Positions 6,401-50,177 of a stretch of 64,000 nucleotides of DNA are shown piece by piece. The notes under the pieces are model-generated. The model was not told where the DNA came from, searched no databases, and saw nothing but the letters and a program-made list of their open reading frames with translations. The DNA is from Siphonodentalium dalli. Taxonomy: Eukaryota > Mollusca > Scaphopoda > Gadilida > Siphonodentaliidae. The translations under genes were made by a program, and so were the position numbers. Location of the stretch: NCBI GenBank assembly GCA_032622095.1, contig CP136062.1, forward strand, positions 33,604,918-33,668,917. The letters are read 5' to 3'. Positions within the stretch are counted from its first letter, which is position 1; every line of letters begins with the position of its first letter.

Positions 6401-6839
6401 AACATAACTGTATAATATAACATACACGTCTGTAACATAACTGTATAATATAACATACACGTCTGTAACATAACTGTATAATATAACATACACGTCTGTA
6501 ACATAACTGTATAATATAACATACACGTCTGTAACATAACTGTATAATATAACATACACGTCTGTAACATAACTGTATAATATAACATACACGTCTGTAA
6601 CATAACTGCATAATATAACACACACGTCTGTAACATAACTGTATAATATAACATACACGTCTGTAACATAACTGTATAGTATAACATACACGTCTGTAGC
6701 ATAACTGTATAATATAACATACACGTCTGTAACATAACTGTATAATATAACATACACGTCTGTAACATAACTGTATAATATAACATACACGTCTGTAACA
6801 TAACTGTATAATATAACATACACGTCTGTAACATAACTG
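3447..6839. repeat. 33-bp minisatellite, about 103 copies
   Basis: Head-to-tail 33-bp units containing ACATACACGTCTGTAACATA followed by ACTGTATAATATA. Most units differ by zero to two bases. The commonest variant replaces CTGTATAAT with CAGTATAAT and is concentrated in the middle. Two units lack two bases (near 4151 and 4265) and shift the frame. All three minus-strand frames lack stops within a unit, giving open frames up to 1058 codons of an 11-residue repeat (such as MLYYTVMLQTC). The plus strand has stops in every unit. I treat the open frames as artefacts of unit length. Rare marker variants recur in the same order 2,570 bp apart. Confidence 0.95.
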
Positions 6840-27000: not shown

Positions 27001-30000
27001 GTTGATGTAGTTGTGTTATGACTATGAGGTTGGTTAATTTACTAGCCTGGGTTGATGGAGTTGTGTGATGACTATGAGGTTGGTTAATTTACTAGCCTGG
27101 ATTGATGGAGTTGTGTTATGACTATGTGTTTGGTTAATTTACTAGCCTGGGTTGATGGAGTTGTGTGATGACTATGAGTTTGGTTAATTTACTAGCCTGG
27201 GTTGATGGAGTTGTGTGATGACTATGAGTTTGGTTAATTTACTAGCCTGGGTTGATGGAGTTGTGTGATGACTATGAGTTTGGTTAATTTACTAGCCTGT
27301 GTTGATGGAGTTGTGTTATGACTATGAGTTTGGTTAATTTACTAGCCTGGGTTGATGGAGTTGTGTTATGACTATGAGGTTGGTTAATTTACTAGCCTGG
27401 GTTGATGGAGTTGTGCTATGACTATGATTGTGGTTAATTTACTAGCCTGGGTTGATGGAGTTGTGTTATGACTATGAGTTTGGTTAATTTACCAACCTGG
27501 GTTGATGGAGTTGTGTGATGACTATGAGGTTGGTTAATTTACTAGCCTGGGTTGATGGAGTTGTGTGATGACTATGAGGTAGGTTAATTTACTAGCCTGG
27601 ATTGATGGAGTTGTGTGATGACTATGAGGTTGGTTAATTTACTAGCCTGGGTTGATGTAGTTGTGTTATGACTATGAGGTTGGTTAATTTACTAGCCTGG
27701 GTTGATGGAGTTGTGTGATGACTATGAAGTTGGTTAATTTACTAGCCTGGATTGATGGAGTTGTGTTATGACTATGTGTTTGGTTAATTTACTAGCCTGG
27801 GTTGATGGAGTTGTGTGATGACTATGAGTTTGGTTAATTTACTAGCCTGGGTTGATGGAGTTGTGTGATGACTATGAGTTTGGTTAATTTACTAGCCTGG
27901 GTTGATGGAGTTGTGTGATGACTATGAGTTTGGTTAATTTACTAGCCTGTGTTGATGGAGTTGTGTTATGACTATGAGTTTGGTTAATTTACTAGCCTGG
28001 GTTGATGGAGTTGTGTTATGACTATGAGGTTGGTTAATTTACTAGCCTGGGTTGATGGAGTTGTGCTATGACTATGATTGTGGTTAATTTACTAGCCTGG
28101 GTTGATGGAGTTGTGTTATGACTATGAGTTTGGTTAATTTACTAGCCTGGGTTGATGGAGTTGTGTGATGACTATGAGGTTGGTTAATTTACTAGCCTGG
28201 GTTGATGGAGTTGTGTGATGACTATGAGGTTGGTTAGTTTACTAGCCTGGGTTGATGGAGTTGTGTGATGACTATGAGGTTGGTTAATTTACTAGCCTGG
28301 ATTGATGGAGTTGTGTTATGACTATGAGTTTGGTTAATTTACTAGCCTGGGTTGATGGAGTTGTGTGATGACTATGAGGTTGGTTAATTTACTAGCCTGG
28401 ATTGATGGAGTTGTGTTATGACTATGAGTTTGGTTAATTTACTAGCCTGGGTTGATGGAGTTGTGTGATGACTATGAGTTTGGTTAATTACTAGCCTGGG
28501 TTGATGGAGTTGTGTGATGACTATGAGTTTGGTTAATTTACTAGCCTGGGTTGATGGAGTTGTGTGATGACTATGAGTTTGGTTAATTTACTAGCCTGGG
28601 TTGATGGAGTTGTGTTATGACTATGAGGTTGGTTAATTTACTAGCCTGGGTTGATGGAGTTGTGTGATGACTATGAGTTTGGTTAATTTACTAGCCTGGG
28701 TTGATAGAGTTGTCTTATGACAATGAGGTTGGTTAATTTACTAGCCTGGGTTGATGGAGTTGTGTTATGACTATGAGGTTCGTTAATTTACTAGCCTGTG
28801 TTGATGGAGTTGGGTGATGACTATGAGGTTGGTTAATTTACTAGCCTGGGTTGATGGAGTTGTGTTATGACTATGAGGTTGGTTAATTTACTAACCTGGG
28901 TTGATAGAGTTGTGTGATGACTATGAGTTTGGTTAATTTACTAGCCTGGGTTGATGGAGTTGTGTTATGACTATGAGGTTGGTTAATTTACTAGCCTGGG
29001 TTGATGGAGTTGTGTTATGAATATGAGGTTGGTTAATTTACTAGCCTGGGTTGATGGAGTTGTGTAATGACTATGAGGTTGGTTAATTTACTAGCCTGGG
29101 TTGATGGAGTTGTGTGATGACTATGAGATTGGTTAATTTACTAGCCCGGGTTGATGGAGCTGTGTTATGACTATGAAGTTGGTTAATTTACTAGCCTGGG
29201 TTGATGGAGTTGTGTGATGACTATGAGGTTCGTTAATTTACTAGCCTGGGTTGATGGAGTTGTGTGATGACTATGAGTTTCGTTAATTTACTAGCCTGGG
29301 TTGATGGAGATGTGTTATGACTATGAGGTTGGTTAATTTACTAGCCCGGGATGATGGAGCTGTGTTATGACTATGAAGTTGGTTAATTTACTAGCCTGGG
29401 TTGATGGAGTTGTGTGATGACTATGAGGTTGGTTAATTTACTAGCCTGTGTTGATGGATTTGTGTGATGACTATGAGTTTGGTTAATTTACTAGCCTGTG
29501 TTGATGGAGTTGTGTAATGACTATGAGTTTGGTTAATTGACTAGCCTGTGTTGATGGAGTTGTGTGATGACTATGAGGTTGGTTAATTTACTAGCCTGGG
29601 TTGATGGAGTTGTGTAATGACTATGAGTTTGGTTAATTTACTAGCCTGTGTTGATGGAGTTGTGTTATGACTATGAGGTTGGTTAATTTACTAGCCTGGG
29701 TTGATGGAGTTGTGTGATGACTATGAGGTTGGTTAATTTACTAGCCTGGGTTGATGGAGTTGTGTTATGACTATGATTGTGGTTAATTTACTAGCCTGGG
29801 TTGATGGAGTTGTGTTATGACTATGAGTTTGGTTAATTTACTAGCCTGGGTTGATGGAGTTGTGTGATGACTATGAGGTTGGTTAATTTACTAGCCTGGG
29901 TTGATGGAGTTGTGTGATGACTATGAGGTTGGTTAATTTACTAGCCTGGGTTGATGGAGTTGTGTGATGACTATGAGGTTGGTTAATTTACTAGCCTGGA

Positions 30001-33000
30001 TTGATGGAGTTGTGTTATGACTATGAGTTGGTTAATGTACTAGCCTGGGTTGATGTAGTTGTGTTATGACTATGAGGTTGGTTAATTTACTAGCCTGGGT
30101 TGATGGAGTTGTGTGATGACTATGAGGTTGGTTAATTTACTAGCCTGGATTGATGGAGTTGTGTTATGACTATGTGTTTGGTTAATTTACTAGCCTGGGT
30201 TGATGGAGTTGTGTGATGACTATGAGTTTGGTTAATTTACTAGCCTGGGTTGGTGGAGTTGTGTGATGACTATGAGTTTGGTTAATTTACTAGCCTGGGT
30301 TGATGGAGTTGTGTGATGACTATGAGTTTGGTTAATTTACTAGCCTGTGTTGATGGAGTTGTGTTATGACTATGAGTTTGGTTAATTTACTAGCCTGGGT
30401 TGATGGAGTTGTGTTATGACTATGAGGTTGGTTAATTTACTAGCCTGGGTTGATGGAGTTGTGCTATGACTATGATTGTGGTTAATTTACTAGCCTGGGT
30501 TGATGGAGTTGTGTTATGACTATGAGTTTGGTTAATTTACTAGCCTGGGTTGATGGAGTTGTGTGATGACTATGAGGTTGGTTAATTTACTAGCCTGGGT
30601 TGATGGAGTTGTGTGATGACTATGAGGTTGGTTAATTTACTAGCCTGGATTGATGGAGTTGTGTGATGACTATGAGGTTGGTTAATTTACTAGCCTGGGT
30701 TGATGTAGTTGTGTTATGACTATGAGGTTGGTTAATTTACTAGCCTGGGTTGATGGAGTTGTGTGATGACTATGAGGTTGGTTAATTTACTAGCCTGGAT
30801 TGATGGAGTTGTGTTATGACTATGTGTTTGGTTAATTTACTAGCCTGGGTTGATGGAGTTGTGTGATGACTATGAGTTTGGTTAATTTACTAGCCTGGGT
30901 TGATGGAGTTGTGTGATGACTATGAGTTTGGTTAATTTACTAGCCTGGGTTGATGGAGTTGTGTGATGACTATGAGTTTGGTTAATTTACTAGCCTGTGT
31001 TGATGGAGTTGTGTTATGACTATGAGTTTGGTTAATTTACTAGCCTGGGTTGATGGAGTTGTGTTATGACTATGAGGTTGGTTAATTTACTAGCCTGGGT
31101 TGATGGAGTTGTGCTATGACTATGATTGTGGTTAATTTACTAGCCTGGGTTGATGGAGTTGTGTTATGACTATGAGTTTGGTTAATTTACTAGCCTGGGT
31201 TGATGGAGTTGTGTGATGACTATGAGGTTGGTTAATTTACTAGCCTGGGTTGATGGAGTTGTGTGATGACTATGAGGTTGGTTAATTTACTAGCCTGGGT
31301 TGATGGAGTTGTGTGATGACTATGAGGTTGGTTAATTTACTAGCCTGGATTGATGGAGTTGTGTTATGACTATGAGTTTGGTTAATTTACTAGCCTGGGT
31401 TGATGGAGTTGTGTGATGACTATGAGGTTGGTTAATTTACTAGCCTGGGTTGATGGAGTTGTGTGATGACTATGAGGTTGGTTAATTTACTAGCCTGGAT
31501 TGATGGAGTTGTGTGATGACTATGAGGTTGGTTAATTTACTAGCCTGGGTTGATGTAGTTGTGTTATGACTATGAGGTTGGTTAATTTACTAGCCTGGGT
31601 TGATGGAGTTGTGTGATGACTATGAGGTTGGTTAATTTACTAGCCTGGATTGATGGAGTTGTGTTATGACTATGTGTTTGGTTAATTTACTAGCCTGGGT
31701 TGATGGAGTTGTGTGATGACTATGAGTTTGGTTAATTTACTAGCCTGGGTTGATGGAGTTGTGTGATGACTATGAGTTTGGTTAATTTACTAGCCTGGGT
31801 TGATGGAGTTGTGTGATGACTATGAGTTTGGTTAATTTACTAGCCTGTGTTGATGGAGTTGTGTTATGACTATGAGTTTGGTTAATTTACTAGCCTGGGT
31901 TGATGGAGTTGTGTTATGACTATGAGGTTGGTTAATTTACTAGCCTGGGTTGATGGAGTTGTGCTATGACTATGATTGTGGTTAATTTACTAGCCTGGGT
32001 TGATGGAGTTGTGTTATGACTATGAGTTTGGTTAATTTACTAGCCTGGGTTGATGGAGTTGTGTGATGACTATGAGGTTGGTTAATTTACTAGCCTGGGT
32101 TGATGGAGTTGTGTGATGACTATGAGGTTGGTTAATTTACTAGCCTGGGTTGATGGAGTTGTGTTATGACTATGAGGTTGGTTAATTTACTAACCTGGGT
32201 TGATAGAGTTGTGTGATGACTATGAGTTTGGTTAATTTACTAGCCTGGGTTGATGGAGTTGTGTTATGACTATGAGGTTGGTTAATTTACTAGCCTGGGT
32301 TGATGGAGTTGTGTTATGAATATGAGGTTGGTTAATTTACTAGCCTGGGTTGATGGAGTTGTGTAATGACTATGAGGTTGGTTAATTTACTAGCCTGGGT
32401 TGATGGAGTTGTGTGATGACTATGAGATTGGTTAATTTACTAGCCCGGGTTGATGGAGCTGTGTTATGACTATGAAGTTGGTTAATTTACTAGCCTGGGT
32501 TGATGGAGTTGTGTGATGACTATGAGGTTCGTTAATTTACTAGCCTGGGTTGATGGAGTTGTGTGATGACTATGAGTTTGGTTAATTTACTAGCCTGGGT
32601 TGATGGAGATGTGTTATGACTATGAGGTTGGTTAATTTACTAGCCCGGGATGATGGAGCTGTGTTATGACTATGAGGTTGGTTAATTTACTAGCCTGTGT
32701 TGATGGATTTGTGTGATGACTATGAGTTTGGTTAATTTACTAGCCTGTGTTGATGGAGTTGTGTAATGACTATGAGTTTGGTTAATTGACTAGCCTGTGT
32801 TGATGGAGTTGTGTTATGACTATGAGGTTCGTTAATTTACTAGCCTGGGTTGATGGAGTTGTGTAATGACTATGAGTTTGGTTAATTTACTAGCCTGTGT
32901 TGATGGAGTTGTGTTATGACTATGAGGTTGGTTAATTTACTAGCCTCGGTTGATGGAGTTGTGTGATGACTATGAGGTTGGTTAATTTACTAGCCTGGGT

Positions 33001-36000
33001 TGATGGAGTTGTGTTATGACTATGAGGTTCGTTAATTTACTAGCCTGTGTTGATGGAGTTGGGTGATGACTATGAGGTTGGTTAATTTACTAGCCTGGGT
33101 TGATGGAGTTGTGTTATGACTATGAGGTTGGTTAATTTACTAACCTGGGTTGATAGAGTTGTGTGATGACTATGAGTTTGGTTAATTTACTAGCCTGGGT
33201 TGATGGAGTTGTGTTATGGCTATGAGGTTGGTTAATTTACTAGCCTGGGTTGATGGAGTTGTGTTATGACTATGAGGTTGGTTAATTTACTAGCCTGGGT
33301 TGATGGAGTTGTGTAATGACTATGAGTTGGTTAATTTACTAGCCTGGGTTGATGGAGTTGTGTGATGACTATGAGATTGGTTAATTTACTAGCCCGGGTT
33401 GATGGAGCTGTGTTATGACTATGAAGTTGGTTAATTTACTAGCCTGGGTTGATGGAGTTGTGTGATGACTATGAGGTTCGTTAATTTACTAGCCTGGGTT
33501 GATGGAGTTGTGTGATGACTATGAGTTTGGTTAATTTACTAGCCTGGGTTGATGGAGATGTGTTATGACTATGAGGTTGGTTAATTTACTAGCCCGGGTT
33601 GATGGAGCTGTGTTATGACTATGAGGTTGGTTAATTTACTAGCCTGTGTTGATGGATTTGTGTGATGACTATGAGTTTGGTTAATTTACTAGCCTGGGTT
33701 GATGGAGTTGTGTAATGACTATGAGTTTGGTTAATTGACTAGCCTGTGTTGATGGAGTTGTGTTATGACTATGAGGTTCGTTAATTTACTAGCCTGGGTT
33801 GATGGAGTTGTGTAATGACTATGAGTTTGGTTAATTTACTAGCCTGGGTTGATGGAGATGTGTTATGACTATGAGGTTGGTTAATTTACTAGCCTGGGTT
33901 GATGGGGTTGTGTGATGACTATGAGGTTGGTTAATTTACTAGCCTGGGTTGATGGAGTTGTGTGATGACTATGAGGTTGGTTAATTTACTAGCCTGGGTT
34001 GATGGAGTTGTGTGATGACTATGAGGTTGGTTAATTTACTAGCCTGGGTTGATGGAGTTGTGTGATGACTATGAGGTTGGTTAATTTACTAGCCTGGGTT
34101 GATGGAGTTGTGTGATGACTATGAGTTTGGTTAATTTACTAGCCTGGGTTGATGGAGTTGTGTGATGACTATGAGTTTGGTTAATTTACTAGCCTGGGTT
34201 GATGGAGTTGTGTGATGACTATGAGTTTGGTTAATTTACTAGCCTGGGTTGATGGAGTTGTGTTATGACTATGAGGTTGGTTAATTTACTAGCCTGGGTT
34301 GATGGAGTTGTGTAATGACTATGAGTTTGGTTAATTTACTAGCCTGGGTTGATGGAGTTGTCTTATGACAATGAGGTTGGTTAATTTACTAGCCTGGGTT
34401 GATGGAGTGGTGTTATGACTATGAGGTTCGTTAATTTACTAGCCTGGGTTGATGGAGTTGGGTGATGACTATGAGGTTGGTTAATTTACTAGCCTGGGTT
34501 GATGGAGTTGTGTTATGACTATGAGGTTGGTTAATTTACTAACCTGGGTTGATAGAGTTGTGTGATGACTATGAGTTTGGTTAATTTACTATCCTGGGTT
34601 GATGGAGTTGTGTTATGACTATGAGATTGGTTAATTTACTAGCTCGGGCTGATGGAGCTGTGTTATGACTATGAGGTTGGTTAATTTACTAGCCTGTGTT
34701 GATGGAGTTGTGTGATGACTATGAGTTTGGTTAATTTACTAGCCTAGGTTGATGGAGTTGTGTAATGACTATGCGTTTGGTTAATTGACTAGCCTGTGTT
34801 GATGGAGTTGTGTTATGACTATGAGGTTCGTTAATTTACTAGCCTGTGTTGATGGAGTTGTGTAATGACTATGAGTTTGGTTAATTTACTAGCCTGTGTT
34901 GATGGAGTTGTGTTATGACTATGAGGTTGGTTAATTTACTAGCCTGGGTTGATGGAGTTGTGTGATGACTATGAGGTTGGTTAATTTACTAGCCTGGGTT
35001 GATGGAGTTGTGTGATGACTATGAGGTTGGTTAATTTACTAGCCTGGGTTGATGGAGTTGTGTTATGACTATGAGGTTGGTTAATTTACTAGCCTGGGTT
35101 GATGGAGTTGTGTGATGACTATGAGGTTGGTTAATTTACTAGCCTGGGTTGATAGAGTTGTGTGATGACTATGAGTTTGGTTAATTTACTAGCCTGGGTT
35201 GATGGAGTTGTGTTATGACTATGAGATTGGTTAATTTACTAGCTCGGGCTGATGGAGCTGTGTTATGACTATGAGGTTGGTTAATTTACTAGCCTGTGTT
35301 GATGGAGTTGTGTGATGACTATGAGTTTGGTTAATTTACTAGCCTAGGTTGATGGAGTTGTGTAATGACTATGCGTTTGGGTAATTGACTAGCCTGTGTT
35401 GATGGAGTTGTGTTATGACTATGAGGTTCGTTAATTTACTAGCCTGGGTTGATGGAGTTGTGTAATGACTATGAGTTTGGTTAATTTACTAGCCTGTGTT
35501 GATGGAGTTGTGTTATGACTATGAGGTTGGTTAATTTACTAGCCTGGGTTGATGGAGTTGTGTGATGACTATGAGGTTGGTTAATTTACTAGCCTGGGTT
35601 GATGGAGTTGTGTTATGACTATGAGGTTGGTTAATTTACTAACCTGGGTTGATAGAGTTGTGTGATGACTATGAGTTTGGTTAATTTACTAGCCTGGGTT
35701 GATGGAGTTGTGTTATGACTATGAGGTTGGTTAATTTACTAGCCTGGGTTGATGGAGTTGTGTTATGACTATGAGGTTGGTTAATTTACTAGCCTGGGTT
35801 GATGGAGTTGTGTAATGACTATGAGGTTGGTTAATTTACTAGCCTGGGTTGATGGAGTTGTGTGATGACTACGAGATTGGTTAATTTACTAGCCCGGGTT
35901 GATGGAGCTGTGTTATGACTATGAAGTTGGTTAATTTACTAGCCTGGGTTGATGGAGTTGTGTGATGACTATGAGGTTCGTTAATTTACTAGCCTGGGTT

Positions 36001-36055
36001 GATGGAGTTGTGTGATGACTATGAGTTTGGTTAATTTACTAGCCTGGGTTGATGG

Positions 36056-39000
36056 AGATGTGTTATGACTATGAGGTTGGTTAATTTACTAGCCCGGGTT
36101 GATGGAGCTGTGTTATGACTATGAGGTTGGTTAATTTACTAGCCTGTGTTGATGGATTTGTGTGATGACTATGAGTTTGGTTAATTTACTAGCCCGGGTT
36201 GATGGAGTTGTGTAATGACTATGAGTTTGGTTAATTGACTAGCCTGTGTTGATGGAGTTGTGTTATGACTATGAGGTTCGTTAATTTACTAGCCTGGGTT
36301 GATGGAGTTGTGTAATGACTATGAGTTTGGTTAATTTACTAGCCTGGGTTGATGGAGATGTGTTATGACTATGAGGTTGGTTAATTTACTAGCCTGGGTT
36401 GATGGAGTTGTGTGATGACTATGAGGTTGGTTAATTTACTAGCCTGGGTTGATGGAGTTGTGTGATGACTATGAGGTTGGTTAATTTACTAGCCTGGGTT
36501 GATGGAGTTGTGTGATGACTATGAGGTTGGTTAATTTACTAGCCTGGGTTGATGGAGTTGTGTGATGACTATGAGTTTGGTTAATTTACTAGCCTGGGTT
36601 GATGGAGTTGTGTGATGACTATGAGTTTGGTTAATTTACTAGCCTGGGTTGATGGAGTTGTGTGATGACTATGAGTTTGGTTAATTTACTAGCCTGGGTT
36701 GACGGAGTTGTGTTATGACTATGAGGTTGGTTAATTTACTAGCCTGGGTTGATGGAGTTGTGTAATGACTATGAGTTTGGTTAATTTACTAGCCTGGGTT
36801 GATGGAGTTGTCTTATGACAATGAGGTTGGTTAATTTACTAGCCTGGGTTGATGGAGTGGTGTTATGACTATGAGGTTCGTTAATTTACTAGCCTGGGTT
36901 GATGGAGTTGGGTGATGACTATGAGGTTGGTTAATTTACTAGCCTGGGTTGATGGAGTTGTGTTATGACTATGAGGTTGGTTAATTTACTAACCTGGGTT
37001 GATGTAGTTGTGTGATGACTATGAGTTTGGTTAATTTACTAGCCTGGGTTGATGGAGTTGTGTTATGACTATGAGATTGGTTAATTTACTAGCTCGGGCT
37101 GATGGAGCTGTGTTATGACTATGAGGTTGGTTAATTTACTAGCCTGTGTTGATGGAGTTGTGTGATGACTATGAGTTTGGTTAATTTACTAGCCTAGGTT
37201 GATGGAGTTGTGTAATGACTATGCGTTTGGTTAATTGACTAGCCTGTGTTGATGGAGTTGTGTTATGACTATGAGGTTCGTTAATTTACTAGCCTGGGTT
37301 GATGGAGTTGTGTAATGACTATGAGTTTGGATAATTTACTAGCCTGTGTTGATGGAGTTGTGTTATGACTATGAGGTTGGTTAATTTACTAGCCTGGGTT
37401 GATGGAGTTGTGTGATGACTATGAGGTTGGTTAATTTACTAGCCTGGGTTGATGGAGTTGTGTGATGACGATGAGGTTGGTTAATTTACTAGCCTGGGTT
37501 GGTGGAGTTGTGTGATGACTATGAGTTTGGTTAATTTACTAGCCTGGGTTGATGGAGTTGTGTGATGACTATGAGGTTCGTTAATTTACTAGCCTGGGTT
37601 GATGGAGTTGTGCTATGACTATGAGGTTGGTTAATTTACTAGCCTGGGTTGATGGAGTTGTGTGATGACTATGAGGTTGGTTAATTTACTAGCCTGGGTT
37701 GATGGAGTTGTGTGATGACTATGAGGTTGGTTAATTTACTAGCCTGGGTTGGTGTAGTTGTGTGATGACTATGAGGTTGGTTAATTTACTAGCATGGGTT
37801 GATGGAGTTGTGTGATGACTATGAGGTTGGTTAATTTACTAGCCTGGGTTGATGGAGTTGTGTAATGACTATGAGGTTGGTTAATTTACTAGCCTGGGTT
37901 GGTGGAGTTGTGTGATGACTATGAGATTGGTTAATTTACTAGCCCGGGTTGATGGAGCTGTGTTATGACTATGAAGTTGGTTAATTTACTAGCCTGGGTT
38001 GATGGAGTTGTGTGATGACTATGAGGTTCGTTAATTTACTAGCCTGGGTTGATGGAGTTGTGTGATGACTATGAGTTTGGTTAATTTACTAGCCTGGGTT
38101 GATGGAGATGTGTTATGACTATGAGGTTGGTTAATTTACTAGCCCGGGTTGATGGAGATGTGTTATGACTATGAGGTTGGTTAATTTACTAGCCCGGGTT
38201 GATGGAGCTGTGTTATGACTATGAGGTTGGTTAATTTACTAGCCTGTGTTGATGGATTTGTGTGATGACTATGAGTTTGGTTAATTTACTAGCCCGGGTT
38301 GATGGAGTTGTGTAATGACTATGAGTTTGGTTAATTGACTAGCCTGTGTTGATGGAGTTGTGTTATGACTATGAGGTTCGTTAATTTACTAGCCTGGGTT
38401 GATGGAGTTGTGTAATGACTATGAGTTTGGTTAATTTACTAGCCTGGGTTGATGGAGATGTGTTATGACTATGAGGTTGGTTAATTTACTAGCCTGGGTT
38501 GATGGAGTTGTGTGATGACTATGAGGTTGGTTAATTTACTAGCCTGGGTTGATGGAGTTGTGTGATGACTATGAGGTTGGTTAATTTACTAGCCTGGGTT
38601 GATGGAGTTGTGTGATGACTATGAGGTTGGTTAATTTACTAGCCTGGGTTGATGGAGTTGTGTGATGACTATGAGTTTGGTTAATTTACTAGCCTGGGTT
38701 GATGGAGTTGTGTGATGACTATGAGTTTGGTTAATTTACTAGCCTGGGTTGATGGAGTTGTGTGATGACTATGAGTTTGGTTAATTTACTAGCCTGGGTT
38801 GACGGAGTTGTGTTATGACTATGAGGTTGGTTAATTTACTAGCCTGGGTTGATGGAGTTGTGTAATGACTATGAGTTTGGTTAATTTACTAGCCTGGGTT
38901 GATGGAGTTGTCTTATGACAATGAGGTTGGTTAATTTACTAGCCTGGGTTGATGGAGTGGTGTTATGACTATGAGGTTCGTTAATTTACTAGCCTGGGTT

Positions 39001-40255
39001 GATGGAGTTGGGTGATGACTATGAGGTTGGTTAATTTACTAGCCTGGGTTGATGGAGTTGTGTTATGACTATGAGGTTGGTTAATTTACTAACCTGGGTT
39101 GATGTAGTTGTGTGATGACTATGAGTTTGGTTAATTTACTAGCCTGGGTTGATGGAGTTGTGTTATGACTATGAGATTGGTTAATTTACTAGCTCGGGCT
39201 GATGGAGCTGTGTTATGACTATGAGGTTGGTTAATTTACTAGCCTGTGTTGATGGAGTTGTGTGATGACTATGAGTTTGGTTAATTTACTAGCCTAGGTT
39301 GATGGAGTTGTGTAATGACTATGCGTTTGGTTAATTGACTAGCCTGTGTTGATGGAGTTGTGTTATGACTATGAGGTTCGTTAATTTACTAGCCTGGGTT
39401 GATGGAGTTGTGTAATGACTATGAGTTTGGATAATTTACTAGCCTGTGTTGATGGAGTTGTGTTATGACTATGAGGTTGGTTAATTTACTAGCCTGGGTT
39501 GATGGAGTTGTGTGATGACTATGAGGTTGGTTAATTTACTAGCCTGGGTTGATGGAGTTGTGTGATGACGATGAGGTTGGTTAATTTACTAGCCTGGGTT
39601 GGTGGAGTTGTGTGATGACTATGAGTTTGGTTAATTTACTAGCCTGGGTTGATGGAGTTGTGTGATGACTATGAGGTTCGTTAATTTACTAGCCTGGGTT
39701 GATGGAGTTGTGCTATGACTATGAGGTTGGTTAATTTACTAGCCTGGGTTGATGGAGTTGTGTGATGACTATGAGGTTGGTTAATTTACTAGCCTGGGTT
39801 GATGGAGTTGTGTGATGACTATGAGGTTGGTTAATTTACTAGCCTGGGTTGGTGTAGTTGTGTGATGACTATGAGGTTGGTTAATTTACTAGCATGGGTT
39901 GATGGAGTTGTGTGATGACTATGAGGTTGGTTAATTTACTAGCCTGGGTTGATGGAGTTGTGTAATGACTATGAGGTTGGTTAATTTACTAGCCTGGGTT
40001 GGTGGAGTTGTGTGATGACTATGAGATTGGTTAATTTACTAGCCCGGGTTGATGGAGCTGTGTTATGACTATGAAGTTGGTTAATTTACTAGCCTGGGTT
40101 GATGGAGTTGTGTGATGACTATGAGGTTCGTTAATTTACTAGCCTGGGTTGATGGAGTTGTGTGATGACTATGAGTTTGGTTAATTTACTAGCCTGGGTT
40201 GATGGAGATGTGTTATGACTATGAGGTTGGTTAATTTACTAGCCCGGGTTGATGG
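36056..40255 (+). repeat. 2,100-bp higher-order repeat, 2 near-identical copies
   Basis: Within the 50-bp satellite, about 36056-38155 and 38156-40255 (42 units each) agree at every position I compared line by line. The agreement includes private variants such as GACGGAGTTG, GGATAATTTACT, TGATGACGATG and AGCATGGG. The copies part only at the ends. Confidence 0.9.
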
Positions 40256-43200
40256 AGCTGTGTTATGACTATGAGGTTGGTTAATTTACTAGCCTGTGTT
40301 GATGGATTTGTGTGATGACTATGAGTTTGGTTAATTTACTAGCCTGGGTTGATGGAGTTGTGTAATGACTATGAGTTTGGTTAATTGACTAGCATGTGTT
40401 GATGGAGTTGTGTTATGACTATGAGGTTCGTTAATTTACTAGCCTGGGTTGATGGAGTTGTGTAATGACTATGAGTTTGGTTAATTTACTAGCCTGTGTT
40501 GATGGAGTTGTGTTATGACTATGAGGTTGGTTAATTTACTAGCCTGGGTTGATGGAGTTGTGTAATGACTATGAGGTTGGTTAATTTACTAGCCTGGGTT
40601 GATGGAGTTGTGTGATGACTATGAGATTGGTTAATTTACTAGCCCGGGTTGATGGAGCTGTGTTATGACTATGAAGTTGGTTAATTTACTAGCCTGGGTT
40701 GATGGAGTTGTGTGATGACTATGAGGTTCGTTAATTTACTAGCCTGGGTTGATGGAGTTGTGTTATGACTATGAGGTTGGTTAATTTACTAGCCTGTGTT
40801 GATGGATTTGTGTGATGACTATGAGTTTGGTTAATTTACTAGCCTGGGTTGATGGAGTTGTGTAATGACTATGAGGTTGGTTAATTTACTAGCCTGGGTT
40901 GATAGAGTTGTGTGATGACTATGAGATTGGTTAATTTACTAGCCCGGGTTGATGGAGCTGTGTTATGACTATGAAGTTGGTTAATTTACTAGCCTGGGTT
41001 GATGGAGTTGTGTGATGACTATGAGGTTGGTTAATTTACTAGCCCGGGTTGATGGAGCTGTGTTATGACTATGAGGTTGGTTAATTTACTAGCCTGTGTT
41101 GATGGATTTGTGTGATGACTATGAGTTTGGTTAATTTACTAGCCTGGGTTGATGGAGTTGTGTAATGACTATGAGTTTGGTTAATTTACTAGCCCGGGTT
41201 GATGGAGCTGTGTTATGACTATGAGGTTGGTTAATTTACTAGCCTGTGTTGATGGATTTGTGTGATGACTATGAGTTTGGTTAATTTACTAGCCTGGGTT
41301 GATGGAGTTGTGTAATGACTATGAGTTTGGTTAATTGACTAGCATGTGTTGATGGAGTTGTGTTATGACTATGAGGTTCGTTAATTTACTAGCCTGGGTT
41401 GATGGAGTTGTGTAATGACTATGAGTTTGGTTAATTTACTAGCCTGTGTTGATGGAGTTGTGTTATGACTATGAGGTTGGTTAATTTACTAGCCTGGGTT
41501 GATGGAGTTGTGTAATGACTATGAGGTTGGTTAATTTACTAGCCTGGGTTGATGGAGTTGTGTGATGACTATGAGATTGGTTAATTTACTAGCCCGGGTT
41601 GATGGAGCTGTGTTATGACTATGAAGTTGGTTAATTTACTAGCCTGGGTTGATGGAGTTGTGTGATGACTATGAGGTTCGTTAATTTACTAGCCTGGGTT
41701 GATGGAGTTGTGTTATGACTATGAGGTTGGTTAATTTACTAGCCTGTGTTGATGGATTTGTGTGATGACTATGAGTTTGGTTAATTTACTAGCCTGGGTT
41801 GATGGAGTTGTGTAATGACTATGAGGTTGGTTAATTTACTAGCCTGGGTTGATGGAGTTGTGTGATGACTATGAGATTGGTTAATTTACTAGCCCGGGTT
41901 GATGGAGCTGTGTTATGACTATGAAGTTGGTTAATTTACTAGCCTGGGTTGATGGAGTTGTGTGATGACTATGAGGTTGGTTAATTTACTAGCCCGGGTT
42001 GATGGAGCTGTGTTATGACTATGAGGTTGGTTAATTTACTAGCCTGTGTTGATGGATTTGTGTGATGACTATGAGTTTGGTTAATTTACTAGCCTGGGTT
42101 GATGGAGTTGTGTAATGACTATGAGTTTGGTTAATTGACTAGCCTGTGTTGATGGAGTTGTGTTATGACTATGAGGTTCGTTAATTTACTAGCCTGGGTT
42201 GATGGAGTTGTGTAATGACTATGAGTTTGGTTAATTTACTAGCCTGTGTTGATGGAGTTGTGTTATGACTATGAGGTTGGTTAATTTACTAGCCTGGGTT
42301 GATGGAGTTGTGTAATGACTATGAGGTTGGTTAATTTACTAGCCTGGGTTGATGGAGTTGTGTGATGACTATGAGATTGGTTAATTTACTAGCCCGGGTT
42401 GATGGAGCTGTGTTATGACTATGAAGTTGGTTAATTTACTAGCCTGGGTTGATGGAGTTGTGTGATGACTATGAGGTTCGTTAATTTACTAGCCTGGGTT
42501 GATGGAGTTGTGTTATGACTATGAGGTTGGTTAATTTACTAGCCTGTGTTGATGGATTTGTGTGATGACTATGAGTTTGGTTAATTTACTAGCCTGGGTT
42601 GATGGAGTTGTGTAATGACTATGAGGTTGGTTAATTTACTAGCCTGGGTTGATGGAGTTGTGTGATGACTATGAGATTGGTTAATTTACTAGCCCGGGTT
42701 GATGGAGCTGTGTTATGACTATGAAGTTGGTTAATTTACTAGCCTGGGTTGATGGAGTTGTGTGATGACTATGAGGTTCGTTAATTTACTAGCCTGGGTT
42801 GATGGAGTTGTGTGATGACTATGAGTTTGGTTAATTTACTAGCCTGGGTTGATGGAGTTGTGTGATGACTATGAGGTTCGTTAATTTACTAGCCTGGGTT
42901 GATGGAGTTGTGTTATGACTATGAGGTTGGTTAATTTACTAACCTGGGTTGATAGAGTTGTGTGATGACTATGAGTTTGGTTAATTTACTAGCCTGGGTT
43001 GATGGAGTTGTGTAATGACTATGAGGTTGGTTAATTTACTAGCCTGGGTTGATGGAGTTGTGTGATGACTATGAGATTGGTTAATTTACTAGCCCGGGTT
43101 GATGGAGCTGTGTTATGACTATGAAGTTGGTTAATTTACTAGCCTGGGTTGATGGAGTTGTGTGATGACTATGAGGTTCGTTAATTTACTAGCCTGGGTT

Positions 43201-43398
43201 GATGGAGTTGTGTTATGACTATGAGGTTGGTTAATTTACTAACCTGGGTTGATAGAGTTGTGTGATGACTATGAGTTTGGTTAATTTACTAGCCTGGGTT
43301 GATGGAGTTGTGTTATGACTATGAGGTTGGTTAATTTACTAGCTCGGGCTGATGGAGCTGTGTTATGACTATGAGGTTGGTTAATTTACTAGCCTGTG

Positions 43399-43409
43399 TT
43401 GATGGAGTT
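43399..43409. repeat. Left target-site duplication of the satellite-borne LINE
   Basis: TTGATGGAGTT, the last forward satellite bases before the inverted segment. The same 11 bases stand at 50167-50177, where the forward satellite resumes. The first four (TTGA) could instead belong to the LINE's ATTGA tail, so the safe core is TGGAGTT. Confidence 0.65.
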
Positions 43410-43508
43410 AACCAACCTCATAGTCATAACACAACTCCATCAACCCAGGCTAGTAAATTAACGAACCTCATAGTCATCACACAACTCCATCAACCCAGGC
43501 TAGTAAAT
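43410..43508 (-). repeat. Inverted 99-bp satellite segment at the LINE 5' junction
   Basis: Two satellite units in reverse orientation. Their reverse complement is identical over all 99 bases to forward satellite at 43134-43232, and equally to 42834-42932. The turn point has the sequence GGAGTTAACC. This is the only inverted satellite I found in either part of the array. Confidence 0.9.
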
Positions 43509-43742
43509 AGAGTTACTTCCCTTGTGACATGTTCGATTAAATTTTCGTTCGTTTATCAACTGCTATTTTCCTCAAAAATGGACCAGCGACACAGTATACA
43601 CCCGTTATCCATTTGATGAAGATTACAAGTAAAATCGTTATTTGATGAAATAATATGTTTGCAACGATATGACTGTGTAATTTGCTGAAGTGCGAATAGC
43701 TCTCCTATTTTCGTCGCAATATAAACACGTGCGTCAACAAGT

Positions 43743-44409
43743 ATGACGACTACAGGTGATAGTACCACCCAAATGATTTCGACAAGTTTAAACAGAGATG
43801 ACTGTAATGTGAAAGATGTTCTAACCTGTATGCAATCTATGAACACAACTATGATAAATAACTTTCAGAAAATTGTAAGTGACCTTCAAGGTTTCAAAGC
43901 AGAGGTAGAAGAAATAAAATCTGCAATGAATACAATCAGTGACGACCATGTTTCTCTCCAAGCAAATGTCACCAAGATGGGGGAGAAAGTGGAAGATATA
44001 GAGACAAATGTAATCCCCAGTGTCTATAATCAACTGAACACGAAACTTGAAAATGTATCAGAGGATCTGATGAAACTTCTTATACACGATCGAAAGTACA
44101 ATCTGCTTGTGTATGGTGTGCCACAACTAAATAATGAGGACCCGTATGAGATAATTCATACTTTTCTTATCAAGGATCTCAATCTTAATATTCAGCTGGC
44201 AACGGGCATTGTCAAAAAAGAGCGTTCGAACTGATCTACCACCATCTCTGAAGCGCGAGAGAGCATTATTGGCAAATACGGCATATGAGCTCAGGAAAAA
44301 CAGGAAACTCAGGACACGCATTAGAGTGGATGGCACCAAAGTAGTCCTTGAAGTTCGTAAGGATTCCACCGTAGCTTGGACAAAATACCATAAACCAGCT
44401 TCTACTTAG
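43743..44409 (+). pseudogene. LINE ORF1 (RNA-binding chaperone), internally deleted
   Basis: The first frame (43743-44234, 163 residues) starts at ATG and has a long coiled coil (about residues 40-110, heptads in QKIVSDLQGFKAEVEEIKSA and beyond), then NLLVYGVPQ, the first strand of the RRM domain of L1-type ORF1 proteins. Near 44207-44215 it breaks. The C-terminal domain (VRTDLPPSLKRERALL onward) is in the +1 frame up to 44409. The middle of the RRM, normally with HRLG and RPIIVRF-like motifs, is absent, so a deletion of roughly 35-40 codons with a frame change is likely. ORF1p would normally coat the element RNA and aid target-primed reverse transcription. This copy probably cannot make a working one. 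Confidence 0.75.
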
Positions 44410-46629
44410 TCATGAAAAGACTACTATCAAGGACACATTATATTTACATGTATCACAATTATGGTGATAAATATAGGAAATTGATTTTTACTTTTCGTCA
44501 TTGAAGACTGTTATAGTATAACAGTATTAGCAATATTGGTCGAACAAGGAAACTTTGGAAAGGAAAACAATTATACAAATATTAAATTTCTGTTATAATC
44601 AGTTATAATGAGAAATTAAAAAAAAAAAAAACACAGTTGAATATTAATTATTGAAAAATTGCTCCTTAAATACTTGACCTATAAATTGTGATATCTAGTA
44701 TTTCATTGCATCATAAGTGTTTGAAATTGATATTTGTCTTAAATTTTTCATTAATTTAGTTGTTACATTGCAACTGCGTGTACTAATAATATGGATCTAC
44801 CATAATGGTGATATCTACATGTAAGTAAAAATCTAATATATCTGAGTTCCTGACAGTATGCAGGTGTTCCAGTTGGCCTTGACCTGAGTATGATGTGCCC
44901 ATGGCTTCCCTTGCTCATGCCTTGGACTTTGCTGGTACTCTTGTCTGGTGTCTGGGAGTTACAAGAATTAAAACTGGGTTACAGTTGGATTATCAAGCTA
45001 TACATGTTACATGGTAACATGGACTGTGTTTTAAATATTGACTAATGTGATACTTTTGTGTTTCTATATTAACTGTTCCAACAGAGTATCGGCTACATAA
45101 TTTCTTCAGCCAGTAGATCTTATGGTACCCAATTTGTTTATTAAACTCCATTATCAGTTACATGGATCGAATGGTAACAAAGTAACAGAATTAATACTGG
45201 AGCAAAACTTACTGTAATATCATTTAAAACGAACAGAGTACTCAAATTTTATTACATATTACTGAGAAATTTATCAGCTGATATAAAACAGGTGTAATTC
45301 TTGTGCATTGCGATATGGTGTTTATGGCTTATTCGTCTCATGACCTCCTTGATTCCACTTGATAACCTTGAACCGACCCCAAAGTAGTACTTCACTTGAA
45401 TGTACTGTCCGCACTCCGCTGAAATGGTCACGCGATAACCATGAACCGACCCCTAATAACATTTACCAAGAATGTACATGAGGCCAGTAAAATTAACTGT
45501 TCGCTCTCGGCCACACTGAATATTACTTTCAGGAGCTCGTTTACAATTATATCATTAGTTTCTGTAACAACTCAATTAAACAAATGAAATGCCAAATAGC
45601 AAAGTGGCATGTTATTCAAGCAACATTTTCTATGTTAAGTTAAGAGTGCTGCATATCAAAACTCAGTATTTCGACAATCCAACTTCCTTAGTGTGACAAT
45701 GAAAGTTTAGTTTTTGAAACCCTGACTAGTTACAACACTATTATTAGTTGTTATTCATATAACCAATTTGCTTATTTATTTGCATTTTCTCAATGCCGAT
45801 GAAGTATTAATCGTTACGTAAACACGTGATTGTTTTTCAATGTATTGTTGACACGGTAATGATTTTACCGGGTGACCGTATTGGTGTGGCCTGTGATATG
45901 ACATTGTTTATTTCTCCACTGTGACCTTCAATGCGACCTATGAGATTACTTGCCGTGTTCGGCTAACGGGGGAACTGTCAATATTCCCGCCACGCGCTGT
46001 CTTAGCCAATGTAAATGAAGCGCAGTTAATTATTTGTTTAAGGCATCAGCTGTTTTTTCGAACAGCCGCTTGTATGAATTGTTCTGGAGTTACCGTTACT
46101 CTAAATAATATCTCTTAGTGCCATAACAGTAATAGCTACTTTGAACATCATTAAAACCTTGGTTATTTAAGTTTACCATTGACCTGAATATGTTTATACC
46201 AGAATTTAAAGGCGCATCTTACTTTCTTTTAAAACGTTAAACGTTTAATTTAACACATAACTATATATTTTAACATGACTCTACATGACAAAAGACTATA
46301 TAACGTAATCCAAATATTTCACATATAATGTAACTATACCATTCAAAGTATTAAACTATTTCAAGTCGCAAAGAAAGCTCACGATATGACCAGTGAGGAA
46401 ATAAGCATGTTGCATATTTATAGCGAAATGCCATCTTACCATCGGGGAGGTATATTATTGTTTTGTATTAGTTATTTGAATAAGTATAACATGATTGTGA
46501 TTCCGATTTATATTCCGACTCTGGGTCTAAATAGACTGTCTCGTCCTGCATTTAATATCTTATTGGTGTTACCAAACCACATTGCCATAGTTATAAAGTT
46601 TTCCATTGAGTGTGGCCTCTTACTTTGTG
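44410..46629 (+). other. 2.2-kb interval between LINE ORF1 and ORF2
   Basis: No frame with recognisable homology. A 13-A run lies near 44619. A diverged 74-bp direct duplication lies at about 45360-45480 (two blocks with GATAACC.TGAACCGACCCC). Small frames at 45921-46118 and 46386-46637 lack known domains. LINEs usually have ORF1 and ORF2 close or overlapping, so this spacer is unusual. It may be family-specific, or sequence acquired by a later insertion whose ends I could not find. Confidence 0.5.
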
Positions 46630-49600
46630 ATGGCTAATCGCAAAACTATAGAGCTTGATGATATAGAAAACAATGATGTTTTTGATTTCTTAGAAACCTA
46701 CCAATCACGTTCAGACGGACTAGAGGGCTCGTGCGATAATCCCATAAATGGATTAGTTCCGACTAAATATTTTTTACCCGAGGAATATAACAATATTGTA
46801 GCCAGAACAAAAAGTCAAGTTTCATTGTTTTCCTTAAATTGTCAAAGTCTCAATGCCAATTGGGATGCTTTCAACACTTTGATTTACGAACTACAAAATA
46901 CGAATGACAAATTTGGAGTCATAGGTCTCACTGAAATATTTCGCACCCCTGATAACATTAATTTCTCATTAGTAGGTTATCATCCTCTCATAAAAAAATG
47001 TAGACCCGATGATGATGATTCAAGAGGGGGCGTTGGGCTTTTCATTAGAGATGACCTGAACTTTAAAATTCGGGAAGATTTATCAATTTTTTTGCCTCAC
47101 GTTTTTGAATCACTCTTCATAGAGATATCCGAACATCATAGAAAGCCGTATATTGTTGGAATTATATACAGACCTAACACTCAGCCAAAGGCTGATATAG
47201 ATAAATTTATCAAAACAATGAAGGAGATAATGACAAAAATTAATTCTGAGCACAAAAAAGGGTTTTTAATGGGTGATTATAATATTGACTTGTTGAAATT
47301 CGGATTACACGTGAAAACAAATGAATTTATTAACTCGTTTTTTGCTGATGGGTTTCTACCAACCATTCTTAGACCGACGAGAGTTACCACATATACTGCC
47401 ACATTGATAGATCAAATACTTACTAATGACCCCTTGATGAGCTTCCAATCGGGTATTGTTATAACCGATGTCAGTGACCATTTTGGTATATTTTATCGGG
47501 AAAAGGCAATTCTCCACAGTCATCAACAGTTAGGAACACAATTACAGAGGAGCTTTTGTGAAGATAATGTATCATGTTTTAAACGTATATTGTCTTCGAC
47601 AAATTATGACTCTGTGTTACATGCATCTAGTCCTGATGGGTCGTATGACTCATTCATGAATCTGTTTTTAAAAGGTTATGATGTTGCCTTTCCTCTTAGA
47701 GTAGTACAAATCAAACGAAAACACATAAAACTAAAGCCTTGGATGACCGGTGGGCTCCTTAAATCGTCTTTGCACAAAGATAAATTATATAGAAAGAAAT
47801 TGAAGAACCCCACTGACGGTAATATTGAACTATATAAGGAGTATTGCAGATACTTTAATCGAATTAAAAGATACAGCAAACGGACATACTATGAGAATAT
47901 TCTGAACTCTTGCAGATCTGACATGAAAAAAACTTGGAACATATTACGCGAAGTCATTCAAAAGAGCAATAAGAAACCTCAATACCCCCACATTTTTGTG
48001 ATTGAAGGGAAACCTATCCACAATAAACAACAAGTGTCTGAAGAATTTAACAAATTCTTCTCAACAATCGGCGAACGCGAAGCAGATAAAATATCGACTA
48101 ACTCTAATATGGATTTCTCTAGCTATCTTGGCCAACCTGAAATTAGAAGTATGTTCGTGCGACCCACCACCGTAGAAGAATTGGGTTATATTGTTAACAA
48201 AATGAAGAATAAACAAAGCAAAGATAACAAGGGGATTTCAGCAGGTTTATTGAAACAAATTATTGAGGAAATTTCAATACCTCTATGTCATATAATAAAT
48301 AATTCATTAGAGGCAGGCATTGTTCCAAAAGAGATGAAAATAGCTAGAGTTATTCCTCTTTTTAAATCGAATGAAAGAAATATGATTCAAAATTATCGTC
48401 CAATTAGTATTCTCCCCACATTTTCTAAAATCCTAGAGAAAGTGGTATGTAACAGGTTAGTGGAATTTTTCCATGATAAATTCTATAAAGAACAATATGG
48501 CTTCCGGAGAGGCCATTCTACAGTTCACCCAATAATCCGACTTCTTAACGACATTGTGATTAATAATGACAAGAAATCAAAAGATTGTACATTAACAACT
48601 TTTATTGACTTCTCAAAAGCTTTCGATACCATAAATCACGATATACTATTATCTAAACTTGAATTTTATGGAGTTCGAGGCAATATAAAACATTGGTTCG
48701 AGAGTTACTTAAGAGATAGAGTGCAATATGTAGATTTAGACGGTTGTGTATCAAGTGAAATCCATATTACAACTGGTGTCCCTCAAGGATCTATCTTAGG
48801 CCCTTTACTTTTTCTTATCTATGTGAATGACATGCACCGGAGTACATCATTATCCCTTTTATCATTTGCAGATGATACCACTGTTTATGCGTCTCATCAT
48901 AATTTAGATTTACTTTTTAAGCGCACAAATATTCAACTTGAATTACTCAATAAATGGTGCAAGGCTAACAAACTGTCATTAAATGCCAAGAAAACCAAAT
49001 ATATTTTATTTCAACCAACTGGTGGAAACTATAATTGCACGAAACATACTCTACAGATAAATGGTCAAATAATTGAAAGAATAGGAAGCAACTGCAAAGA
49101 AAAATCCTTCAAATTCCTTGGTATTCATCTCGACGAAAATTTAACATTCAACAACCACACAGCTTTAATTGCAACAAGAATGTCTAGAGCTCTATATGCA
49201 ATTAACAGAGTTAAACACATTCTTCCAGAAAGGAATTTACGACAGTTGTATTACAGTCTAATTCATAGTCACCTAACATATGGCATAGAAATTTGGGGAA
49301 ATTCGAATACGTTTAATAAATTAATAGTATTGCAGAAAAAGGCAATTCGCATTATACATAATAAAAGATATAACAGCCACACCGATCCACTTTTCAAAAA
49401 AAGTAATATACTAAAAGCTCACGATCTTTATAAATTACGCACCTATCAATTCATGAACGATTGGTTCTGCAACCAACTACCTATCTCATTTCAGAACACT
49501 TATCGCATATACCACAACCCAACAATGGTAACAAGACAAAGTGGCAAATTAGGTGGAACAAAATCTAGAACATCCTTTACCGAAAACCTTCCTTACCATA

Positions 49601-49779
49601 TCTTCCCGAAACTTTGGAAAGAACTAGATACATCTTTACAGTTAGTTTTACCACGTTCCAAATTTAAACGAGACGTATCTGAAGATATCATAAGCAGCTA
49701 TCTTGACAGTGTTCTTTGTAAAAACCTATACTGTTTCGACTGTTATCCGTTCATGGATGAATCAACTTTATATATGTAA
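46630..49779 (+). CDS. LINE ORF2: endonuclease and reverse transcriptase, intact
   Basis: 1049 residues from the ATG at 46630; the open frame extends 24 nt further upstream but without an ATG. The endonuclease spans about residues 60-290: N70 in SLNCQSL, E102 in LTEIF, GDYNID at 215-220 and VSDHF at 281-285 supply the catalytic set that nicks target DNA. The RT spans about 550-800: NYRPISILP (588-596), YGFRRGHST (623-631), FIDFSKAFD (658-666, catalytic D660), TGVPQGSILGPLLF (715-728), FADDT (746-750, catalytic D748 and D749). Then KLSLNAKKTKYILF and FLGIHLDENL of the thumb, and a C-terminal region with HLTYGIEIWG (881-890) and a Cys-rich end (CKNLYCFDC). No stop or frameshift and every catalytic residue is present, so the enzyme may be functional although its ORF1 partner is broken. 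Confidence 0.93.
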   Translation: MANRKTIELDDIENNDVFDFLETYQSRSDGLEGSCDNPINGLVPTKYFLPEEYNNIVARTKSQVSLFSLNCQSLNANWDAFNTLIYELQNTNDKFGVIGLTEIFRTPDNINFSLVGYHPLIKKCRPDDDDSRGGVGLFIRDDLNFKIREDLSIFLPHVFESLFIEISEHHRKPYIVGIIYRPNTQPKADIDKFIKTMKEIMTKINSEHKKGFLMGDYNIDLLKFGLHVKTNEFINSFFADGFLPTILRPTRVTTYTATLIDQILTNDPLMSFQSGIVITDVSDHFGIFYREKAILHSHQQLGTQLQRSFCEDNVSCFKRILSSTNYDSVLHASSPDGSYDSFMNLFLKGYDVAFPLRVVQIKRKHIKLKPWMTGGLLKSSLHKDKLYRKKLKNPTDGNIELYKEYCRYFNRIKRYSKRTYYENILNSCRSDMKKTWNILREVIQKSNKKPQYPHIFVIEGKPIHNKQQVSEEFNKFFSTIGEREADKISTNSNMDFSSYLGQPEIRSMFVRPTTVEELGYIVNKMKNKQSKDNKGISAGLLKQIIEEISIPLCHIINNSLEAGIVPKEMKIARVIPLFKSNERNMIQNYRPISILPTFSKILEKVVCNRLVEFFHDKFYKEQYGFRRGHSTVHPIIRLLNDIVINNDKKSKDCTLTTFIDFSKAFDTINHDILLSKLEFYGVRGNIKHWFESYLRDRVQYVDLDGCVSSEIHITTGVPQGSILGPLLFLIYVNDMHRSTSLSLLSFADDTTVYASHHNLDLLFKRTNIQLELLNKWCKANKLSLNAKKTKYILFQPTGGNYNCTKHTLQINGQIIERIGSNCKEKSFKFLGIHLDENLTFNNHTALIATRMSRALYAINRVKHILPERNLRQLYYSLIHSHLTYGIEIWGNSNTFNKLIVLQKKAIRIIHNKRYNSHTDPLFKKSNILKAHDLYKLRTYQFMNDWFCNQLPISFQNTYRIYHNPTMVTRQSGKLGGTKSRTSFTENLPYHIFPKLWKELDTSLQLVLPRSKFKRDVSEDIISSYLDSVLCKNLYCFDCYPFMDESTLYM

Positions 49780-50166
49780 GAATTGTTAAGTGAATCCAAC
49801 GCATGTACGCCCATTATGTGTGAAGAATACAACTATATCATCAGTCTTATATTATACCAAAATTTATATTATATATCATAATTGAACGATATTTTACTGA
49901 ATTGCCACTTAGGCTATGGAAAAAACTAAACCACAAAAGTATCGTTGTCTACACTACTATAGATAAAAAAAAAAACTTGTATCACCATTATATACTGTCA
50001 TTTGGGATCAGAGTCGGAATATAATTATCTAAGTTTGGGAGAGTGCAGGAAGACGACCAGTAGGTCATGCCATCTCCCAGTAATATATACTATATTTTGT
50101 TTGATTTTTGTATTATACATTATCATGTTTGTTATATATTACTAAATAAAATTGAATTGAATTGAA
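49780..50166 (+). other. LINE 3' UTR with (ATTGA)n tail
   Basis: 387 bp from the ORF2 stop to the satellite. An AATAAA signal at 50145-50150 is followed at once by four ATTGA units (50151-50170), the last of which merges with the satellite's own TTGATGG. Such short-repeat tails are where the reverse transcriptase starts copying in several LINE groups. Confidence 0.8.
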
Positions 50167-50177
50167 TTGATGGAGTT
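50167..50177. repeat. Right target-site duplication of the LINE
   Basis: TTGATGGAGTT, matching 43399-43409. It begins the resumed forward satellite. Confidence 0.65.

Follow-up and report, generated by a model that had tools for sequence, protein, structure and literature searches.

Snap-back 5′ junctions have been defined for R2 insertions, in which nearby rDNA is a less frequent template (Zhang et al., 2024; PMC11371274), and the follow-up study describes snap-back as the fusion of reverse-complemented cDNA or nearby rDNA (PMC11331408); both reports attribute these junctions to priming of the cDNA 3′ end on nearby DNA. Extra nucleotides, for which template jumping is favoured, have been reported at the 5′ junctions of ZfL2-2 (PMC2666801; Suzuki et al., 2009), and about 40% of the zebrafish copies carry such nucleotides according to work cited there. 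Furthermore, template jumping and twin priming have been described for L1 (PMC2912911, PMC2837659), and the junctions of Drosophila R1 and R2 include duplicated and non-templated bases (PMC2718515).

The locus considered here lies in the window, a 64,000-nucleotide stretch of the scaphopod Siphonodentalium dalli (C2:33604918-33668917 of a genome assembly of 2.23 Gb in 9 contigs), where a 6.66-kb LINE is embedded in a satellite array and the reverse complement of nearby target sequence is fused to the LINE 5′ end. Reverse-complemented nearby target DNA likewise stands beside the 5′ end of the element in the R2 snap-back junctions obtained with PRINT (PMC11371274, PMC11331408); whereas that work employed an avian R2 protein in human cells with rDNA as the target, the present case is a natural insertion of an APE-type LINE into a satellite array, in which the 5′ end is full-length and the two seams can both be read. 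Given that the R2 class has already been described, we place the present case, as a natural example, in the snap-back class.

The other described systems are similar in more limited respects. The locus shares with ZfL2-2 the extra sequence between the target and the LINE 5′ end, but no inverted copy of the target was seen in PMC2666801, in whose main text the word "inverted" does not occur. The insertions made by polymerase theta resemble the proposed event in that a 3′ end snaps back and is extended by copying in cis; they are characterized as short tracts accompanied by non-templated bases (PMC4912351), in contrast to the single clean tract of about 100 nt found here. In the 5′ inversions of L1 that result from twin priming (PMC2912911, PMC2837659), inverted sequence also lies near the LINE 5′ end, but there it is a part of the LINE that is inverted, whereas here the target is inverted and the LINE is not. 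No natural case in which target satellite stands inverted beside a LINE 5′ end was found in the literature searched, the coverage of which was limited; to judge from these searches, the novelty lies in the type of LINE, in satellite as the target and in an empty site that can be read.

The LINE and its relatives

The LINE is a full-length element that occupies positions 43509..50166 on the forward strand, limits that were set by the 5′ and 3′ ends of sibling copies; it may begin at 43507, given the AT that precedes AGAGTTAC in some siblings, and its tail, a short repeat of the form (TTGAA)n, may reach 50170. A domain search of ORF2 (46606..49779, forward strand; 1057 aa as listed) identified an endonuclease/exonuclease/phosphatase domain (PF03372, E 3.9e-07) followed by a reverse transcriptase domain (PF00078, E 5e-40), the arrangement of an APE-type non-LTR retrotransposon. 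Membership of a CR1/L2-like clade is a putative placement, suggested by the short repeat that forms the tail and by the short duplications.

ORF1 as it stands (43743..44234, forward strand) is shortened by a 158-bp deletion near position 44212 of the window (LINE position ~704), the ends of which overlap by the 2-bp motif GT. The deleted segment is kept in all four near siblings checked (L075-L078), and the spacing of matches suggests that the copies at C8:166067448 and C2:39169760 keep it as well. Such a deletion is compatible with a jump in the very round of reverse transcription that produced this copy; it may also have been borne by the RNA or have arisen later. RNA splicing was considered and rejected: by eye the ends are unlike GT-AG, and a jump over the 2-bp repeat is the simpler account.

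A search with the first 601 bases of the LINE returned 15 matches including the query itself (all 15 candidates were scored), four of the others being 98-100% identical to it. Copies L005 and L009 and the near-duplicates L010 and L011 carry the AT before AGAGTTAC, as does the window; L001 starts at AGAGTTAC without the preceding AT; L003, L007, L013 and L014 match from 2-4 bases after the start of AGAGTTAC; and the divergent L012 is matched only from position 49. The 5′ flanks were fetched for 10 of the 14 other matches, the remaining four being matches without the first 340 bases of the query. BLAST detected satellite in none of 69 fetched stretches of the family, and the window's own junction, which served as the positive control, gave clear matches. 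Given the common base region of the sibling 5′ ends, the flanks of which are unrelated, and the lack of satellite in these 69 stretches, the 5′ end of the RNA looks native and the reversed satellite is not part of the LINE family. At the opposite end of the element, the 3′ end is common to at least 39 other copies among the matches listed (the best 40 of 342 candidates), and L002, L004 and L006 have the same tail.

The LINE in the window is collinear with its siblings from its 5′ end onward. Twin priming was rejected, since no antisense LINE piece was detected in 36 stretches around 3′ copies (15 of these 36 copies extend past the sequence retrieved) or in another 19. An earlier note on this DNA, made from the sequence alone, had likened the junction both to filler DNA and to LINE 5′ inversions, but with satellite as the template; 5′ inversion is a different process, of which these stretches showed no instance.

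A comparison of other 5′ junctions of the family for inverted local sequence had been proposed in the same note: no inverted flank copy of at least 12 bp abuts any of 46 other 5′ ends (42 distinct), save a 14-bp match in an AT microsatellite, (AT)n, at L032. The matches sought lay within the last 130 bp before the LINE and had a partner at most 600 bp to the left. The 46 ends (31 + 15) were defined by BLAST or genome search and are not all certain junctions; the flank was shorter than 600 bp in 15 of the 31 and 11 of the 15, and only 81 and 77 bp at L053 and L057. The distinct set omits the second members of L010/L011, L013/L014, L053/L057 and L056/L058; in addition, the true end of the divergent L012 is perhaps further out, the match at L060 is rearranged, and the 5′ end of L059 was not counted. 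At a distance from the LINE, the inverted matches of 27 bp (L038) and 17 bp (L061) form part of a palindromic hairpin element whose arms lie 36-125 bp away, and at L062 the distance is 75 bp for a match of 13 bp. With the window included, an inverted block is thus present at 1 of 43 distinct 5′ ends; as none of the other 42 is similar, apart from the (AT)n match, a general tendency of the family toward such joins was rejected.

Some features of these flanks are recorded here in their own right. The short palindromic hairpin element lies beside or around two insertions (at ~395-465 in L038 and in the left flank of L061), and by eye the LINE of L061 seems to sit within it. Copies L061 and L062 (500-501) have unrelated flanks and both start at internal LINE position 2899, which could reflect either an RNA start used repeatedly inside the element or a lineage of truncated copies.

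An inverted block in a one-way satellite array

The satellite has a 50-bp unit and runs forward on both sides of the insertion, at 24193..43409 on the left (tandem repeat scan and orientation map) and from 50178 to the end of the window at 64000 on the right, whence it continues to C2:33780321, extended position 175404 (tandem repeat scan and 12-mer map). The whole array, which was read to its end, spans 24193-175404 in window-extended coordinates, or about 151 kb, of which 144.5 kb is satellite and the rest the insert. In the 12-mer map, which reports stretches of at least 13 bp, all of it is forward save a single block at 43408-43508; minus-strand BLAST of 315 array chunks yielded, apart from this block, only one 13-bp match (E 0.07), very short or strongly diverged reversed pieces being of a kind that could escape both searches. 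The claim of the earlier note that no other inverted satellite occurs in 33 kb therefore extends to the whole array, and the many inverted blocks elsewhere that would have spoken for an origin before the LINE were looked for with the same outcome. A separate tandem array with a 33-bp unit (103 copies, 97% matches) lies at 3449-6839 of the window.

The inverted block lies between forward satellite and the LINE, directly preceding the LINE 5′ end at ~43507-43509. It comprises at most 101 bp on the reverse strand, 97 bp of them unambiguous, and sequence comparison showed it to be the exact reverse complement of 43134-43234; two bases (TT) are common to the block and the left flank, and two (AT) are possibly common to the block and the LINE 5′ end, overlaps that are within chance. 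The earlier note had described 99 bp complementary to 43134-43232 and sealed at a GTTAAC turn. The match is indeed exact and now longer by two bases, but the copy at 43134 is not the sole exact one; similarly, there is a seam at GTTAAC, but forward GGAGTT simply meets reverse AACC there, the TT possibly belonging to both, and the idea of a special turn signal was rejected because no signal separate from the seam was seen.

The 99-bp core occurs in the assembled genome in 12 forward copies and one reverse copy, the block itself, and all 12 forward copies match the block over the full 101 bp. Five of them, starting at 40684, 41634, 42434, 42834 and 43134, lie in the window within 2.8 kb upstream of the insertion, their near edges being 2,625, 1,675, 875, 475 and 175 bp from it, respectively; the other seven are at extended positions 151769-164269, 101-114 kb past the LINE. 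The nearest copy (43134..43234, forward strand), which ends 175 bp before the insertion point, is the probable template or a twin of it. Among 101-mers taken from the rest of the array, 1.2% (1,718/143,756) have an exact copy at most 500 bp to the left of the insertion and 1.8% (2,521/141,530) have one at most 2,726 bp to the left. Hence, the odds favour a local template over one drawn from anywhere in the array by a factor of about 50 to 80, a figure that is rough because neighbours in the array resemble each other; with 7 of the 12 exact copies more than 100 kb away, a nearby template is favoured rather than proven.

The insert is flanked by an apparent target-site duplication of 11 bp, TTGATGGAGTT, at 43399..43409 and 50167..50177 (both on the forward strand; flank comparison and seam test), 7 bp of which extend beyond the LINE tail, the other four, the first on the right, being ambiguous with it. 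When the insert is removed and the duplication collapsed, the flanks join as ordinary forward satellite, with scores of up to 594/600 against other stretches of the array; this is the best of 49 joins tested (300+300 bp, the alternatives shifted by whole units on either side), the next scoring 589, and 60 internal control windows of the left array had best non-self scores of 528-600 (median 594). Apart from the block, the LINE and the duplication, nothing seems to have been gained or lost at the site.

The duplication provides only moderate evidence because the target repeats every 50 bp, and the probability that an apparent duplication of this size arises by chance is appreciable, roughly 0.15-0.2 by estimate, not computation. 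Together with the 3′ end common to the siblings, the 7-11 bp of apparent duplication, read with this caution, indicate an element otherwise inserted through target-primed reverse transcription (TPRT). Among 38 other copies of the family with both ends (a set that includes two duplicated pairs), 9 have a duplication of at least 6 bp, one of them in an AT microsatellite, compared with a rate of 2.3% among 300 shuffled pairings; the block was omitted when the window was scored, and the remaining 29 copies have no duplication of 6 bp or more. Short duplications in this LINE family thus exceed chance, yet are not general. At the near-identical sibling L001, on the reverse strand, a 7-nt extra segment separates an 8-bp target duplication from the LINE, and a similar word precedes the LINE in L003. 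Copies L032 and L045 have exact direct repeats of 18 and 20 bp in both flanks, 120 and 37 bp to the left of the LINE, respectively, and were perhaps inserted into other tandem repeats.

Origin of the inverted block

The block is real, probably of biological origin and a one-off of a known kind, and most likely it and the LINE arrived together. The seamless empty site, the siblings free of satellite and the status of the block as the sole reversed one detected in the array favour one event at the LINE 5′ join, and we consider it quite probable that the block is a snap-back scar, that is, the trace of a template switch onto the target during this joining. The earlier note had anticipated such an event, and these three observations support it.

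Four other origins have to be weighed. Conceivably, the reversed satellite arrived as RNA, through 5′ transduction from a source LINE situated in reversed satellite, through ligation into a chimeric RNA, or through a jump of the reverse transcriptase onto a satellite transcript of antisense orientation; fusions with non-coding RNA, almost always U6, do form a described class of 5′ junctions, the "extra template" class (PMC11371274). Such an origin is unlikely, given that the reversed 99-mer occurs only once in this assembly, that the 14 other 5′-region matches provide no source flanked by satellite (the 10 fetched flanks are free of it and the other four matches lack the first 340 bases), and that a source drawn at random from the array would have an exact copy nearby just 1.2-1.8% of the time. 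An artefact of assembly or amplification is less probable still: satellite arrays are difficult to assemble and amplification chimaeras can form inverted copies, but a random artefact would hardly fall exactly between the apparent duplication and the LINE 5′ end, once in 151 kb.

The two remaining origins separate the block from the LINE in time. Inversions do occur in satellite arrays generally, and the LINE could by chance have landed at the edge of a reversed block already in place; however, the 144.5 kb of satellite yielded no other such block, and because the apparent duplication encloses the block and the site reads seamlessly once the block is taken out, this account needs a coincidence exact to the base, which makes it very improbable. 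Conversely, an error of replication or repair could have added the block to an already integrated LINE, polymerase theta being established as capable of snap-back extension (PMC4912351). Such an error would have had to strike the exact bases where the LINE begins, and the insertions reported in that study are short, with a median of 7 bp, compared with about 100 error-free bp here; we regard it as very unlikely.

Under the snap-back reading, reverse transcription of the LINE RNA would have yielded first-strand cDNA reaching the normal 5′ end of that RNA. While this cDNA had yet to be linked to the left flank, the 3′ end of either the cDNA or the cut top strand would have annealed to upstream satellite through about 2 nt and been extended on this DNA for some 97-101 nt, whereupon the new end would have been joined, again with possible pairing of about 2 nt. 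In the first of two conceivable routes, the cDNA 3′ end (CTCTAT if the RNA starts with ATAGAG) would anneal to the AT that precedes 43136 on the bottom strand, with extension proceeding rightwards. In the second, the top-strand 3′ end GAGTT would fold back on AATTT at 43233-43237 through TT:AA and wobble pairs, be extended leftwards and then move onto the cDNA. Read along the cDNA strand, the junction consists of antisense LINE, then forward-sense satellite from 43134 to 43234, then the complement of the left flank. By eye, both routes lead to the same product with an overlap of about 2 bp at each seam, so that the two candidate priming ends cannot be told apart. The single event and the use of local DNA as template are what we infer from the junction; as for the enzyme, the clean, error-free tract of about 100 nt favours the LINE reverse transcriptase or a processive polymerase over polymerase theta. 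We tentatively entertain the possibility, which we would not call the probable one, that the reverse transcriptase of a natural APE-type LINE, having finished its RNA, primed anew on the target DNA and made a reversed copy of about 100 nt of satellite.

The joining of the 5′ end is the less understood half of LINE insertion, and both seams, the empty site and the probable template can be read here because the target is an ordered repeat. This case supports the view that joins of the snap-back type known from engineered R2 arise, if rarely, when LINEs integrate naturally as well, and illustrates one way for an inverted block to enter a satellite array. If the proposed copying by the LINE is correct, a satellite array that runs in one direction can receive its first inverted block through a LINE insertion, and palindromes and foldback inversions might start from such a block.
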